Shown piece after piece: positions 49,757 through 61,840 of a stretch of DNA of 64,000 nt. The translations under genes were made by a program, and so were the position numbers. How positions within the stretch are numbered: the stretch's first letter is position 1; the number at the start of each line of letters is the position of its first letter. This stretch comes from Ceratodon purpureus (Eukaryota; Streptophyta; Bryopsida; Pseudoditrichales; Ditrichaceae). The stretch lies in NCBI GenBank assembly GCA_014871385.1, contig CM026425.1, positions 8,161,243-8,225,242 of the forward strand. Direction: 5' to 3'. The notes beneath the pieces were generated by a model, which was not told the DNA's origin, ran no database searches, and saw only the letters and a program-made list of their open reading frames with translations.

Positions 49757-51219
49757 TTCCCATCCTTGTGAAGTTCAACATAGAGATGGAGGAGGTTCTC
49801 CATGAGATGCGGAAGTTGCTGCAGTCTATCACACTACTAGAAAATCCGGTGGCTAATCAAGTAGTGGGGAAGAGAATTCACTTGCCGGTTGGTCTTGAAT
49901 CGGACAAGTTGTTTCAGACGCAGGGAAGTGTCTTTACTTGAACCACTATGGGCGCTCCGAGGGTGTGTCACGTAGGACAGTCGACGTGGATTCTGTGCTG
50001 ACTGGACCGACACGTAGGCAGGGGGGTACATGAGGGCTGAGGGCATCGGATGAACGGGTATCAATCAGGTAGTAGGGTGTCAATCGAGGTTTAGGGTGGA
50101 TCTCAGGTATTAGGGTGCAATCATGGTTCATGTCCTCAGTAGGGGTATCAATCGGGGTTTACGCATTGCCAGCCGGGTTTCAAGCGGTCCTAAGGTCACA
50201 CTTTAATGCAGTCAGAGTCTCCAAATTCTCGAGTTTGACCAGGCCCCGTCGTGACACGTGTCTGCAGATGGTGAACTTGCATCACCAGTTCTTGACCGTT
50301 GATTGTGATACACGCAGACTGCGGAGATGGGGGATCAGATGGGAAGATGTAGGGTTCCTACGGCGGCTGCAATATAGGATTTAGGGTGTACTAGTTGATG
50401 AACCGGTTGATAACCTTTTCGGTTGACCTCAGGGGGGAACAGGTTCTAGGTATAATTCGACCATTACATTAAAATACAATGTACATGTACACAGATACTC
50501 AAGAAGTTTCTGCGGAAGTGCATTACGAGAGTAGACCAAATTTATAAAATTGCCAAATGGCCAAAGTGCAAATTTACTGATAATTTCGGTAGGAGTACAC
50601 ATTTCTGAAACGCGTTAATATCTCTCCCGCGTTATTCAGAAATGATAAAGTGGAATGATTTGCCCGGTTCAAACACAAAATCGCCCTGATGTAATGTGTT
50701 CAAGGGGAAAAATGAACCTCGCTGCTCAAACAACAGACGGTACTGTATTATGAATCCAGATCGTCACAAGAACTATGGCTCTCCAAATAGCTCCATAGAA
50801 AAAGCAAATTAGTAGAAAAGTGGTAGTTAGGTGCAACTTCAGTATGAAGGTATGCATCAGTCCCCAAGTCCACGCCCGGACTAAATCAAACACAGCCGAC
50901 ATGGGCTTCTGTTGCATCGGAGGAGTATGATGATATCTTGAGAGTGGTTGAGATTAAAAAGGCAGCAATTCCCTATATCAAACATGGAAGACGTATTGTC
51001 ATTTCAGAAAAGAAACGGATTAAGGTGCAGTTAATATCATCATATCAAGGAGTAACAAATACAGATATGTACATGTATGCATAAAGAATCTCATGAATTG
51101 AACCCATTATAATACGGAAAGAGCTAATTAGTGTTACCACTGGGTTTTATGAGAAGTGGAGTTGCAAAAGAATAGACACTTCAAATGAACCTGCGCAGAA
51201 TTATGAGATAATTAGTATT
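49757..51219. other. Intergenic region with interspersed TTAGGG-like units
   Basis: Around 50040-50170 and 50379 the motifs GGTATCAATC, AGGGTGCAATC and GTTTAGGGT recur in loose array, suggesting a decayed satellite. The right half is AT-rich 3' flank of the dioxygenase gene. No gene is supported. Confidence 0.35.
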
Positions 51220-52362
51220 TTAAAAGTGAGAATTTTGAAATAGGGCAATTCCATACTGTCCTTTTGAACCTAGAGTTCTTGTACAATGATACAAGTCTCT
51301 AGACTTCAATAGAACAACATCTCCAATTTTGGGGATAAAGAAACAATTCAAACCTTGCAAGTAAAATTTGGCTTCATTGCCAAATTCATCTCTGTCTCCT
51401 GCAACCACCAAAATAATAAATTATTTAAAACAAAACAATTTAGAAGAAAAAACAAGACATAATGAAAAAAATTCAATAACGAATAAATTAGTTGAATATA
51501 GAATTTTAGCTTACCATCTGAGCCAAGCCAAATAAAAAATCCAAAACTATTATCATGTTCATCGTTATGCGGGTTACAAGAATAATCTCTTGTAATGCAC
51601 ATTGTAGTGAATGGTGCACCACCTACTCTCCCCTCATTCATTGGCATGCCTTCTCTGATCCAAACGACCTCCAAGTGTTCAAAAATAGGTGGAAAAAGCT
51701 CTTTTAAAACCTTGCACAGCATCGTAGCTAACTTCTCACCATATGAATAACATAGAGGGTGTTTAGAATGGCTAAACCTACATAACAATTGCTCAGAACA
51801 AAAGGTAGCATTAATGTAGCACAAGAGAAATTCATCGCTACGTATTCCACGAATCTCCGTTGGTGTTTTAATTCTTTTCTCCTCACTCCAATTCTGTTCC
51901 TCTAAGATATATTCATTCTTCCAATATATCTTAGGACGATCACTATGCTGCACTCTACGTATGAATCTACAGCTAAAGGGCCCCTTGTACACTTCGTTCG
52001 GTGCAGGTGGCTGAATAATCCTAAGAGATGACAAATGCATATTTGTAACATGCTTCTCAAAGACACTATACCTTGCTTGAAGCTTTTTCGTTGGATCGCA
52101 CCGAATGCGATTACAAACGAAAAAAAGGCAAATTGGGACTCCATGACAAACCTTGGTCAAGTAAAAATGGCTCATAAATTTTCAACTTCTCTAGACGCCT
52201 ATGTTTCTTCCCAACAAAATGTATACTAATACCATGAGCAGTAACTGTAGTATTACAAGCAGAACAATAAAATTCATCACCGCTTGGTAACTCGGAGCCT
52301 CTGTCACTATAAGAAAAGATTTCTCCTTGTTTGGAACAAGATCTTCTTCTTTTTCCACCCAT
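51220..52362 (-). CDS. U1-type zinc finger protein with Tet-like 2OG-Fe(II) dioxygenase domain
   Basis: Three exons (52362-52152, 52075-51515, 51398-51220) join in phase to give 316 residues. Residues 33-54 form a C-x2-C-x11-H-x5-H finger ending GKKH, the U1/matrin type seen in RNA- or DNA-binding proteins. The C-terminal half fits the double-stranded beta-helix of Tet/JBP-like 2OG-Fe(II) oxygenases of the kind expanded in fungi. CNPHNDEHDNSFGFFIWLG supplies the iron ligands His240 and Asp242, and GDVVLLKSRDLYHCTR supplies His295. A Gln (305) stands where an Arg for 2-oxoglutarate might be expected. By homology it may oxidise methylated bases, but the substrate is unknown. The first intron is short (76 bp) and inferred from phase. 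The coding sequence is AT-rich like its surroundings. An acceptor-like CATAG lies just above the start, so an upstream non-coding exon is likely. Confidence 0.78.
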
Positions 52363-53825
52363 TGGGAAACCTATGAAAATATACAACAAAACAAGAGAAA
52401 ATAAGTCATTTGAAAGGCTGTTACAAATAAAAACATAAGTTTTTTTTTTCTTACAAAAAGAAACTATACGTAGTACACATTTACACATAGTTTTCATAGT
52501 ATTTTTGTTATCAAAACTCATTTTCACTTAAGAGGCAATGGCTACCTTAGTCAAAGGATAAATATCCTATGACTTCTCACCATCACATCAAGGACAATTA
52601 AAGGTCTTTTAATTCAACGGATTCAGTTCACATATCCACAGAATGTGCAAACCTTCACTGGAATTTATATGTAACACGAATACTAAGCCAACAAGAATGT
52701 TATGCTTACAAGAAATGAACAATACATGTTATCTAAGTGGTAATAAATATCACAGCGGCTAGTAACTCATAATGTATGTATACATTACCCTACACATGGA
52801 TACATGTTTAAGTAAAAAATCTCAAGGACAAGTTTTACCTTACAATCAATCAAAAATTCAAATCATATGTTAATATACTCATAAAATTATCATACTATTA
52901 TTCAACTAAGTTCAGCAAGCATTAATATACATATATCATGATGCATAATAAAATCCCTCAACTTTATAATATACTTACAATTCAATCCAAATTATACTTT
53001 CAAAAATGATCATTTAAACATAAGTGCATCAGGCCCAAACTTATAGCATTCATCACAAATTATATAGCAAAATCAATAAATTTTCTTCAAAATTCATCTT
53101 CTGATTCTATACCAAACGGTTTCTATGCTCAGTTGAAGTTGGTGCCTTCTTCCACGCTTGAATCTATTCGGCAGCTCAACACCCTCACACCTTCAAAGCC
53201 ATAACTTTGTCTCTAACAATCTAAATCAGAACTTATAAAGCTCCATAGAAAACTAACACAGTAATACTTCACTTGATCAACCTTCATAAACAAAAAGACT
53301 ATAAACAAGTTTCTACAAGCTTTTGAAGTCTTGGTCTTCTAAATTTCTTTATAGCAGACACTGTCTCACTCAAACACATATAGGAATTACATAATGAGTT
53401 TAAATAGAGCGTGCTATATCATTATGGAACCACAATAAGAGTATATACAAGCTCTCAAAATCTTATAAAAAAACTTATAGTACACACTGAGTTCTCGCTC
53501 TCCAAAAACCGCACACCAAAAAATAAACTCTGGTGGAGGATAGACGGGAACCGGACCCTTCGCCTCCACCCAAAGTCAACACTAGCCCATACCTACGCCT
53601 CATTGGCCTCAACTACTTATTGGCTAACTCCTTCAAGCTTACTTCAGCCTTATCTATCCCTTATTTTAGCCATAAGGCATCAAAAATTTACCAAATGGTA
53701 AACTATTTCTACATTTATCTTCCAAACTTGTAACATGGAAGGTGAAGTTTGGAAGCATTAAAAACTAAACAAATAAAATTAAATATATGTCTAAAAGAGC
53801 TTGAAAAGAAATATCAAGAGGAATT
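52363..53825. other. AT-rich region between the dioxygenase gene and the next ORF
   Basis: Likely leader and promoter of the dioxygenase gene, with AT-rich sequence throughout. Plus-strand open stretches (53411-53733) overlap in two frames and have no motif. No terminal inverted repeats flanking the dioxygenase gene were found by eye. Confidence 0.4.
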
Positions 53826-58026: not shown

Positions 58027-59105
58027 TTAACCCCTAAATTACCTTGTGTTTTTGAGAGCTTAATCCTCAAAACTGTAATTTTTTACCACTATGCCCTTTC
58101 GAGGATATGAAACAAATTTTTTAACTTTTTTTGGAATTTCAACCGTAAGATCTTGTACCTAATCCTACTTGGAAGAACTGATCCAAATTTCAACCGTTGG
58201 ATGTTTTTCGTTAGTGAGATCGTAGTGTTCAAAGTTTCAGCATATATTTTTTTGGGCCTTGACGGAGAGGCATGGTGCAAATGGGCCAAAGGGAGACTTG
58301 ATGATTCCTACTTCAAACATTTTGGTCACATTTTTTTTCATGTAGCTAACTAGGTTAGGTATGCTCATGCAAAATTTTAGGGACTCGAAACGCTTTTTAG
58401 ACCTTCCTGCAAATTATTTTCTACAAGAAGGTATAAAATTGACAAAATAGTAAAACATGCATTACAATACAATTTGTGAGCTAAAGAAAAAGTGAACGGT
58501 GAGTAGGTACCTTTATAAATTTGTGATTTTCAGATAATTTTTTTTTTAAAAAATTCAAAAATCTCGAATCTTGACAAATTTTTGAAGGGAAAATTCAAAA
58601 ATTACTAAAAACTTTGAAGCTTGTCTTTGTAAGTTTTGGAGGTTGCCCTTGTAAAATTGGTAAACTTTTTGACTTCGGTCACTATGGAATTTGAGTAGTG
58701 ATTTGATTATGAATATATTTCAATTTTTTTTTTTTTAAAAAAAGACCTAATTTTAGACTGCCCATTTTGGACTTGAAACCTAAAATTTCCAGATGAAGGT
58801 TCTAAAATTGAAATTTGGCTTCAAATTTTTTACTACATAGACCTTATTGTAAAGGGAATATCCAATAAAAATCTCAAAAAAAAAAATTATTTTTAACCTC
58901 CCCTACTAGGCTGCCCGAAAGTGCAAAACCCATTTTGGGTTTTAAGGATAGTTAGAGGTCAAGGACACATTTTAAAGCAGTGAATAAGTATTTTCTATAT
59001 TTATAATAAACTAGAAATTGATTTTTATTAATAGTAATTCTATCATTAGGTTTAAAACATGATCTGAAATCAAAAAAACATTTAAAAAAATATCTACAAA
59101 TATAT
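58027..59105. mobile_element. TTAA/CCCCTAAA element, left copy
   Basis: TTAA at 58027-58030 is followed by CCCCTAAA, the same start as at 59106. Both copies contain AACCGTAAGATCTTGTA and a GATC...GTTCAAAGT block in the same order, so they are related. No matching right end (TTTAGGGG TTAA) occurs before the second copy, so this copy is truncated or joined to the next. Non-coding and AT-rich. Confidence 0.6.
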
Positions 59106-59973
59106 TTAACCCCTAAAGTTCTGAGGGTATTTTTCATCAAAACTGCCTCAAAACAGCCCTTCTTCAAAGCAAGGTGGATTTTGCAAACTTGGGGTTTTTT
59201 TTAGTACATCTAACCGTAAGATCTTGTAGCTAACTTCTATGTCTACATGTCCACCAAATCTCACACACTCATTCTTCACCAATTGCAAGATCATAACGTT
59301 CAAAGTAGAAAAACAAGTTTTTTTTCCTACAAAAAAAGGGGACATCAGAGTTTTGAAGGCCCAAAAAACCATTTTTTTGCATTATGGATTTTGGGGGTTT
59401 TCATGCATGTCAAAGAAGACTGAGTTAGCTAATTGTACTGAGAAAATTATATTCAAAAAAAATGTGGAAAGTTGCCAAAAAAATCATTTTCCACTACGGG
59501 GTATACTGAAATTCACAAATAAAGGCCGTTTTTGGACAATAAAAATAGCATATTAAAAAAAATTGGATTAAAAATCCGAAAGGTGGGAACATGCTCTACT
59601 GCCTTCCCTATACATTGAAATTTTTATTTTTGAAAAATATCAAAATCTCAATTTTTGGTGGAATTTCAAGGTTTCGTCTTTGGGCAGATTTTGGCAGTTT
59701 TGGGCAGTTTTGGGCAGTTTTGGGCAGAATTTGCTGCATTCACAGTGGCTTAGAAACATTCAACAGCTGCCCAACGAGCAGCGTTTGACACTTAAACCTT
59801 CATAACTTTTGATCCCGATGTCGGAATTGAAAATTAAAAATACCCACACGAAGATCTCCGAACGGCCCACCTTCAATAAAAATTTCAGAAAATCCTGATA
59901 TAAATTGCATTCATAGGTACATGCCCAAATTCAAAAAAAGCCCAAATGTGGCAGATTGTCCTTTAGGGGTTAA
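59106..59973. mobile_element. TTAA-flanked element with CCCCTAAA...TTTAGGGG ends
   Basis: TTAA occurs at 59106-59109 and 59970-59973. Between them are 860 bp that start CCCCTAAAG and end CTTTAGGGG, a perfect 9-bp TIR. The ends follow the piggyBac-like rule (TTAA, then CCC). The element includes a 10-bp tandem repeat at 59679-59727. No transposase ORF is present. Confidence 0.68.
59679..59727. repeat. 10-bp tandem repeat, about five copies
   Basis: The unit TTTTGGGCAG is repeated about five times with small variation, inside the TTAA-flanked element. Confidence 0.85.
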
Positions 59974-61840
59974 AGAAGTTTTTATCACATTGATACCAAA
60001 TTTTACAAAGTTCATTAGTGCCATTGATGATATTTGAAATCATGGACATTGATAGTTGCATTATACAAGAAAGTATGATCAAATAATGAATAAAAGTAAT
60101 ATAGAATCTCGATGAACATAAATTTAAATCCAAGCATAACCATATCCATGGCTAATTTAAATTTAAAATCATCTTTGGTCACTCTTTAAGAAGCAAAACA
60201 AAGCAGAACTAGAAAGAAGCCATCATGTATTGGAATGATAACGAGTTGATAGTTTTGAATTTATGTTTAAAAATGTTGTGAACAATGAATAGATGATTGA
60301 TAGTAAACCTTGAGTAAATTGATTTTTCTTGAGATAGTTAAGAAGTTAAAGATATTTAAGTTGGTAAGTTTTCAAAATGTTTTTTTACTTAATTTTAAAC
60401 ACTACCTTTAAAATTTGTATTTTTGAACCACCCAAGCAATTTGGCACAACCTTGCAACACTAGCTTTTAAGACTGCACATTACTTTAGTGTGATAATCTA
60501 GAACATAAAAATTGTCTTTAATCAATACAAGAATTTAAAAACACTGGATGGATGAAAATGCAAATACACAAGTAATGTGGTACTTGAATATGTTGATCAC
60601 AATCAAGAATTTGAATGCTTTCACTTATAAAGATCAATATATATTGATGACAAGAATGAATTCCATCTCAAGAGAAAGCCTAAGGCTCAAATTAGACATA
60701 GCAATATGTACTATCACCCGTTGAAAACCTTATATGGTGTCTAAAAAAATTGTTCTAGAGCCCATTAAAATCTTTTTCTTTTCTTACAAATAGGATCCAA
60801 CTAGAATTCATCTTATTTATTAAACCACAAGTATCAATACATAAAGCGGAGATAGTCCATTTTTATTTTACTATAGCTCATATCTACATGTCTTTATTCT
60901 CTTTGTTGACCTTTTCCTAAAATCATACTAATAGTCAAGCAATATGAAGTAAGTTTTTTATGAATATGGGGATGGACTCTATTACTCTCAATCAATGGCG
61001 TAGGAAAACCATACATAGTGAAGGTCCAAAACTTGTGCAGTAAATTAACATTGAAATAGTTAAGATTGTAATTATAAACTGCTTTATAGGAGACTAATGT
61101 TGATCAATCAATTTTTTAATTTTTTAAATTTTCTCTATTTTGACTAAGATGGTAAGTCAACCCACATATTGACTTTGGATTGGTCCTAGTATCAATTTAA
61201 GATGAGCTTGTAAAAGGGTTTGAAATATTCTTCACTTTGAAAAATTGTCAAATTAATACCTATATGGGATATCAATAAGAAATCACTTTACCTCCTTATG
61301 ATTTTTTCTCTTTTATGCAAAAAAACCGAATCTTGAGGGGAAAAAAAATATTTCTAATATCCAAATCTCCTTATTTTCACAATTTCTGGTATTTCCACGC
61401 TAACGACAGGAATAGGCTGATCTACCTCTCCTGCAATTTGTATCCTTCATAGGTGTCGGTTCTTCCTAGTGCACCCAGAATTAAAAACAAACTGGGTGAA
61501 TGAACAGCATGGATGGGACTCATCATCACTGACACACATCCCACAGCACCCTCAAACCACCTCAAACCAACATGGACAACACACACTCTTGAAAAAACAC
61601 CCTGTGTGTCCCCCAAAAAAAACACAAAAAAAACACACTCTTGAAAGCTGAAAGAGAGTGTGCACTGAATCCAAGGCCATGTCACTCACATCCCATCCCA
61701 TCACATTACATTGATCCACACAAACAATCACTCCATTTGGGTTCACCTACCATCAAGTTATCAGCATATTCAACATTGCAACTCCTCAAATCCAAGTAAT
61801 GCTCTCTTTCTTACACCTTGGCAATCGCCATCTTTCACAA
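59974..61840. other. AT-rich intergenic sequence and promoter of the last gene
   Basis: AT-rich until about 61380, with no gene. From 61400 the composition changes and A/C-rich sequence leads to a probable leader exon ending at the donor AAG|GTATGT near 61841. Confidence 0.4.

Follow-up and report, generated by a model that had tools for sequence, protein, structure and literature searches.

A zinc-finger dioxygenase pseudogene of the moss Ceratodon purpureus and its probable place in a large, dispersed TET/JBP-type family

On contig CM026425.1 of Ceratodon purpureus (GCA_014871385.1), a stretch of 64,000 nt (8,161,243-8,225,242; hereafter the window) was noted in a preliminary description to carry a three-exon gene at 51220-52362, in which a C2H2 zinc finger is joined to a Tet/JBP-type dioxygenase domain. 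Such a gene in a plant raises the questions of whether it is intact, to which family it belongs, how it came to be there and what it might act upon. The joining of a finger to a Tet/JBP-type domain was borne out, both by the motifs read on the minus strand and by matches to the Tet_JBP profile. The locus itself is a dead copy; it belongs to a large family, dispersed in the moss genome, whose proteins combine a finger with a TET/JBP-type iron dioxygenase.

All parts of the window copy lie on the minus strand, apart from the deletion junction, to which no strand applies. The first part of exon 1 runs from the ATG to a frameshift (52123-52362) and includes, as read from the translation, a zinc-finger motif of the form C-x2-C-x11-H-x5-H (52201-52266). 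At about position 52122 there is one extra base relative to copies A, B, C and E (described below), all four of the close copies that allow the comparison, so the finger and the dioxygenase core are in different frames; it is this frameshift that had been taken for a first intron. The remainder of exon 1 follows in the other frame (51787-52121), with its end deleted. The deletion (junction at 51786-51788) took away the last part of exon 1 and the greater part of intron 1; the loss comes to about 303 bases against copies A, B and C, and to 338 against copy E. Exon 2 (263 bases, 51515-51777) and intron 2 (51399-51514), the sole real intron remaining, have splice sites common to the intact copies. 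Within exon 2 is the sequence HNDEHD (51552-51569), an HxDxxD motif with two Fe ligands and an Asp that aligns with Asp350 of CMD1, and beyond it a Trp at H+13 (51528-51530) that aligns with CMD1 Trp358. Exon 3 (51223-51398) is truncated, with about 33 more residues in intact copies, and the distal His, the third Fe ligand, was read from its sequence at 51286-51288. Homology to the close copies stops at 51222, at a stop codon (51220-51222) created where the homology ends. Judged from its reading frames, the window copy is a pseudogene, being frame-shifted, internally deleted and cut off at 51222, and a working three-exon gene at these coordinates is not supported. On the other side, an upstream flank (52363-53071) is common to copies C and E and forms the limit of window homology, with DNA identities of 94% and 93% to these two copies over 51786-53071. 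The surroundings had been called AT-rich, which holds only mildly, as the two 2-kb bins holding the gene have GC values of 0.40 and 0.34, and the window's bins span 0.27-0.47.

The genome searched consists of 151 contigs totalling 362.5 Mb, including one of 110.5 Mb. Exon 3 of the window has six matches at 91-100% identity, its own included, and the five others share 91-97% protein identity with it; these make up subfamily 1. Among the six, copy A alone has joined exons without a stop (C6, minus strand, 100283378-100281835; three exons, 412 aa). Copy B has one stop in its joined exons and copy C two, copy E is frame-shifted like the window copy, and copy D is without most of exon 1. Intron 2 is common to the other close copies at the DNA level, and these copies thus multiplied as DNA and not through processed messages. 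The dN/dS values are 1.1-1.5 when the broken copies B, C and E are compared with one another, and 0.32-0.49 for A against B, C or E; no reliance can be placed on values involving the window copy. A badly decayed relative, nearest to subfamily 1, lies about 29 kb ahead of the window start (L035, C5:8130900-8132600).

To which family do these genes belong? The window frame at 51348-52181 matches Tet_JBP (PF12851) with an E-value of 0.0012 and 18.6 bits, below the cut-off of 34.9. The Tet_JBP profile search that had been proposed as a check gave matches for 4 of 5 sequences in moss alignment A1 and 5 of 6 in A2, of which the best, at 7.3e-7, falls short of the curated cut-off; PF20515, the other profile put forward, did not fare as well, with a best E-value of 0.086 and matches in 2 of 5 and 1 of 6 rows, respectively. 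Most single moss sequences fall below the Tet_JBP cut-off, L043 scoring 32.0 bits and L042, at 35.3, slightly exceeding it. In a genome-wide search, one of eight Tet_JBP matches was over the cut-off, and none of 14 control genomes, which may themselves lack TETs, was positive.

Searches of the PDB pointed to CMD1 of Chlamydomonas reinhardtii (PDB 7CY4-7CY8), an algal TET homologue that uses vitamin C and acts on 5-methylcytosine. A profile of eight moss translations taken straight from DNA, unspliced (A5), found CMD1 first (E 3.3e-10), with two Tet-like dioxygenase sequences next (E 0.05 and 0.055). CMD1 was the sole match of A4 (E 1.6e-4), and came first with A2 (E 0.012) and, weakly, with subfamily 3 alone (E 0.093); it was second with A1 (E 0.095) and with A3, in which exon-1 pieces are misplaced (E 0.16). 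By these profile comparisons, the closest solved structure to the moss proteins is CMD1. NgTET1 and the Tet-like dioxygenases (4LT5, 5CG8) align with the moss proteins at the HxDxxD motif and the distal His (E 0.05). Exon 3 alone drew WelO5 at an E-value of 0.19, which is not significant. Plant 5mC DNA glycosylases of the DME/ROS1 type deal with the same base by another fold and chemistry, and no match to that family was seen in Pfam scans of the window frames, A1 and A2. Taken together, we consider it nearly certain that the moss genes belong to the TET/JBP family, and they are best read, from their sequences, as an amplified plant branch of it.

Pattern matches in two sets of viral contigs (41 and 40) and in GTDB genomes (117) yielded no confirmed relatives, and none were found in phages. 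The best PHROGs match (0.0039) was to a family of unknown function, and NCBIfam returned nothing usable. As other plants are absent from these collections, they are silent on how widespread the family is. A viral origin is unsupported, there being no confirmed relatives in the viral contigs or phages.

The N-terminal finger is a feature of the moss proteins. Its spacing fits the U1/matrin type of C2H2 finger, as had been suggested, but no Pfam finger family was matched in scans of the window frames, A1, A2 and L042/L043, and a PDB match to Bud20 was non-significant (E 1). A C-x2-C...H-x5-H pattern is also present close to the N terminus of L043.

The copy-number search that the preliminary description had called for revealed many copies, which speaks against a chance origin of the motifs. 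Exon 3 of the window matches at least 73 places, on C1 to C13 and C23, and the L043 query at least 111; the two lists are unmerged and count exons and decayed pieces alike, so both figures are lower bounds. The 110-Mb contig carries 13 of the 73 exon-3 places (by eye) against 22 expected from its length, and so shows no excess. Subfamily 2 has the same exon borders as subfamily 1 and a product of 421 aa, and five of the eight copies read are stop-free (L014, L015, L018, L019, L020). Its three subgroups give dN/dS values of 0.16-0.27 when compared with each other, so the subfamily 2 protein has been under purifying selection; within the main subgroup the values are 0.23-0.59, based on few changes, and that for L019 and L020 is 0.10. 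In view of the ratios for copies A, B, C and E, we restrict the claim of selection to subfamily 2. Subfamily 3 (L039-L041) and a single-exon family (L042, L043) share the dioxygenase core, copy A matching L043 at 27% identity over 182 positions (E 1e-15; 2.9e-12 for profile against profile). Seven TET-like pieces, 33-34% identical to L043, form a tandem array at C2:5970400-5978820, spaced at exactly 1,353 bases. Three subfamily-2 copies (C6:7655442, C4:1065759 and C4:1089300) are followed 6-7 kb downstream, on the same strand, by a second TET-like piece (by eye), and perhaps represent a larger unit with two such genes.

How did so many copies arise? An acquisition with mobile DNA had been suggested, and the many dispersed copies are consistent with such a spread. 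The segments shared between copies have ragged ends, and neither terminal repeats nor target duplications were apparent at the segment ends inspected by eye. Part of an armadillo-repeat gene recurs in several subfamily-2 units, a pattern that gene capture would produce. One piece of this gene lies at L015:8828-9487 (minus; Arm match, E 3e-8), and part of it is common to L014, L016, L017, L024 and L025. Spread of the copies by mobile DNA seems likely to us. The alternative of an ordinary host multigene family, expanded by segmental duplication and now decaying, with no mobile carrier, would account for the ragged ends, for the occurrence of L019 and L020 within a duplication of at least 9.9 kb and for the purifying selection on subfamily 2. 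It is harder to reconcile with the number of exon-3 places and the range of contigs they occupy, with copies that are 96-99% identical in DNA yet lie on different chromosomes between unlike flanks, and with the armadillo-repeat gene fragments common to copies, and we judge it unlikely.

PiggyBac transposases are abundant in this genome (998 first-look candidates; all 116 that were scored exceeded the cut-off, and many of them have long open frames). That PiggyBac transposons carry the copies is suggested by transposase fragments (PF13843) adjoining L022 and L023, and by two of the 116 scored matches, on C2 and C12, lying less than 3 kb from exon-3 matches (compared by eye), where 0.23 pairs would be expected within 5 kb (P 0.023). 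The four cases, however, differ in orientation and distance, neither L022 nor L023 showed TTAA-flanked inverted ends, the same tblastn search was negative for the window and for the loci of subfamilies 1 and 2, and two of 26 ten-kb loci is within chance given 998 candidates (0.72 expected, P 0.16). Carriage by PiggyBac elements is accordingly very improbable, and spread by some form of mobile DNA remains our preferred reading. Frames resembling CACTA/EnSpm transposases were seen by eye at L015:143-1299, at L019:8947-9792 (gene-oriented) and downstream of copy A; L015:143-877, within the first of these, has no Pfam match. At L021:3564-5135, two inverted arms of 372 bases, 97% alike, bound an insert of about 1.6 kb in total with long inverted ends. 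The Ceratodon genome paper is said to describe transposons named Lanisha.

The active site offers clues to the chemistry that intact members might perform, and its likeness to CMD1 lies outside what the preliminary description had read. The mapping used nine sequences from four lineages: subfamily 2 contributed five close copies, the single-exon family two sequences, and subfamilies 1 and 3 one each. The HxD...H iron triad, lost in some decayed copies such as L038 and L035, is present in all nine, as are a Thr at H-8, the full HxDxxD motif and the Trp at H+13. Two residues after the distal His is a Thr in four sequences and a Ser in five. By alignment and counting, the CMD1 equivalents are Thr337, His345/Asp347/Asp350, Trp358 and Thr399, and the position of Phe371 is shared as well. 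The CMD1 Ser335 position is Ser in six sequences, Cys in one and Gly in two. Other CMD1 residues are not kept in all moss subfamilies: counting slots without gaps, the Arg418 position has Arg in subfamily 1 only (Gln, Pro or Lys elsewhere), the single-exon family has lost Phe416, and Ser occupies the Ser414 slot in one of nine, that of subfamily 1. Arg244 and His249 fall outside the alignments with moss sequences. The moss genes also differ from CMD1 in their many copies.

According to the available text of PMC7854593, Thr337, Trp358 and Thr399 of CMD1 bind vitamin C and Asp350 binds N4 of cytosine, and mutants of these residues, or of His345 or Asp347, are reported to have lost activity. The same source states that Trp358 stands where TET2 and NgTET1 hold 2-oxoglutarate by an arginine, and that it blocks this co-substrate. 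The moss proteins keep the Trp that fills this pocket in CMD1 and lack the 2-oxoglutarate arginine, on which grounds ascorbate would be favoured over 2-oxoglutarate; we put ascorbate-type chemistry forward tentatively, at somewhat less than an even chance. A conventional TET enzyme would use 2-oxoglutarate, with another residue holding its carboxylate, and convert 5mC to 5hmC and beyond. Membership in the TET/JBP family favours this, and an aromatic residue at H+13 is not unique to CMD1, since the Tet-like 5CG8 has a Tyr there. At this position CcTet has Leu, and Val is given for human TET2 (PMC11040006, available part; the offset is our own count). The same source indicates that CcTet binds its co-substrate in its own way and that co-substrate-binding residues are less conserved among Tets. 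Conventional TET activity is nonetheless rather doubtful, as no other PDB entry matches nearly as well as CMD1, the blocking Trp of CMD1 is kept, and the positions distal H+10, +13 and +15 are free of basic residues in all nine sequences, which share a Gln at +10, where 5CG8 has Arg.

As to the substrate, the intact enzymes probably act on 5-methylcytosine. Thymine in DNA, or RNA, might be acted upon instead by an enzyme of this type. NgTET, with the same HxDxxD motif, is reported to be active on thymine too (PMC12344493, in the part available), so the motif does not fix 5mC as the substrate, and in its spacing the finger is like U1-type fingers that bind RNA or ribosomes, as in the weak match to Bud20. 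Against this, the motif's second Asp pairs with cytosine N4 in CMD1, and D350N gave no thymine product (PMC7854593, available text); we think another substrate improbable and retain 5-methylcytosine.

A working model for the intact members can be outlined. The finger would help to place the protein on nucleic acid, and Fe(II) would be bound by HxD...H in the presumed double-stranded beta-helix. Of the HxDxxD residues, the second Asp may then contact N4 of a flipped-out 5-methylcytosine, by analogy with CMD1 Asp350, and the methyl group would be modified, more tentatively with ascorbate rather than 2-oxoglutarate as co-substrate. Most tentatively of all, the genes might be mobile DNA themselves, or travel within it, and act against silencing by methylation, a role proposed for fungal TET-bearing transposons. 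In its fullest form, the model would have mosses harbouring self-spreading, finger-guided, vitamin-C-dependent enzymes that convert 5-methylcytosine to 5-glyceryl-methylcytosine and so escape methylation-based silencing, a combination we hold to be unlikely as a whole; if true, 5-glyceryl-methylcytosine would exist in land plants. CMD1-like chemistry is offered here as a proposal from aligned residues and not as a claim of membership.

TET/JBP proteins of fungal DNA transposons were reportedly treated by Iyer in 2014. The available text of Kojima 2025 (PMC12730594) shows that fungal transposons with TET/JBP genes are already known and, as in the moss, occur as many dispersed copies in one genome; there the genes sit in defined transposons with transposases, whereas no carrier was found for the moss copies, and that text contains no mention of moss or of a zinc finger. 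Recent papers call TET-like enzymes unidentified in plants. We found no report of a plant or moss TET/JBP gene in the titles and abstract openings of the open-licence literature, nor in the available parts of PMC9916717, PMC12108942 and PMC12344493. A large plant family with stop-free copies apparently under selection and a CMD1-like active site would provide a new set of natural TET variants.

Ten other frames of the window were also scanned, and four match Pfam families at E<0.001 (mitochondrial carrier, MFS, SPX and BTB), the MFS match being below the Pfam cut-off for that family. A degenerate 19-base tandem repeat lies within a G-rich stretch at 50056-50123, and a repeat at 59083-59974 is 93% identical to a C4 stretch in the 30-kb region around copy B.
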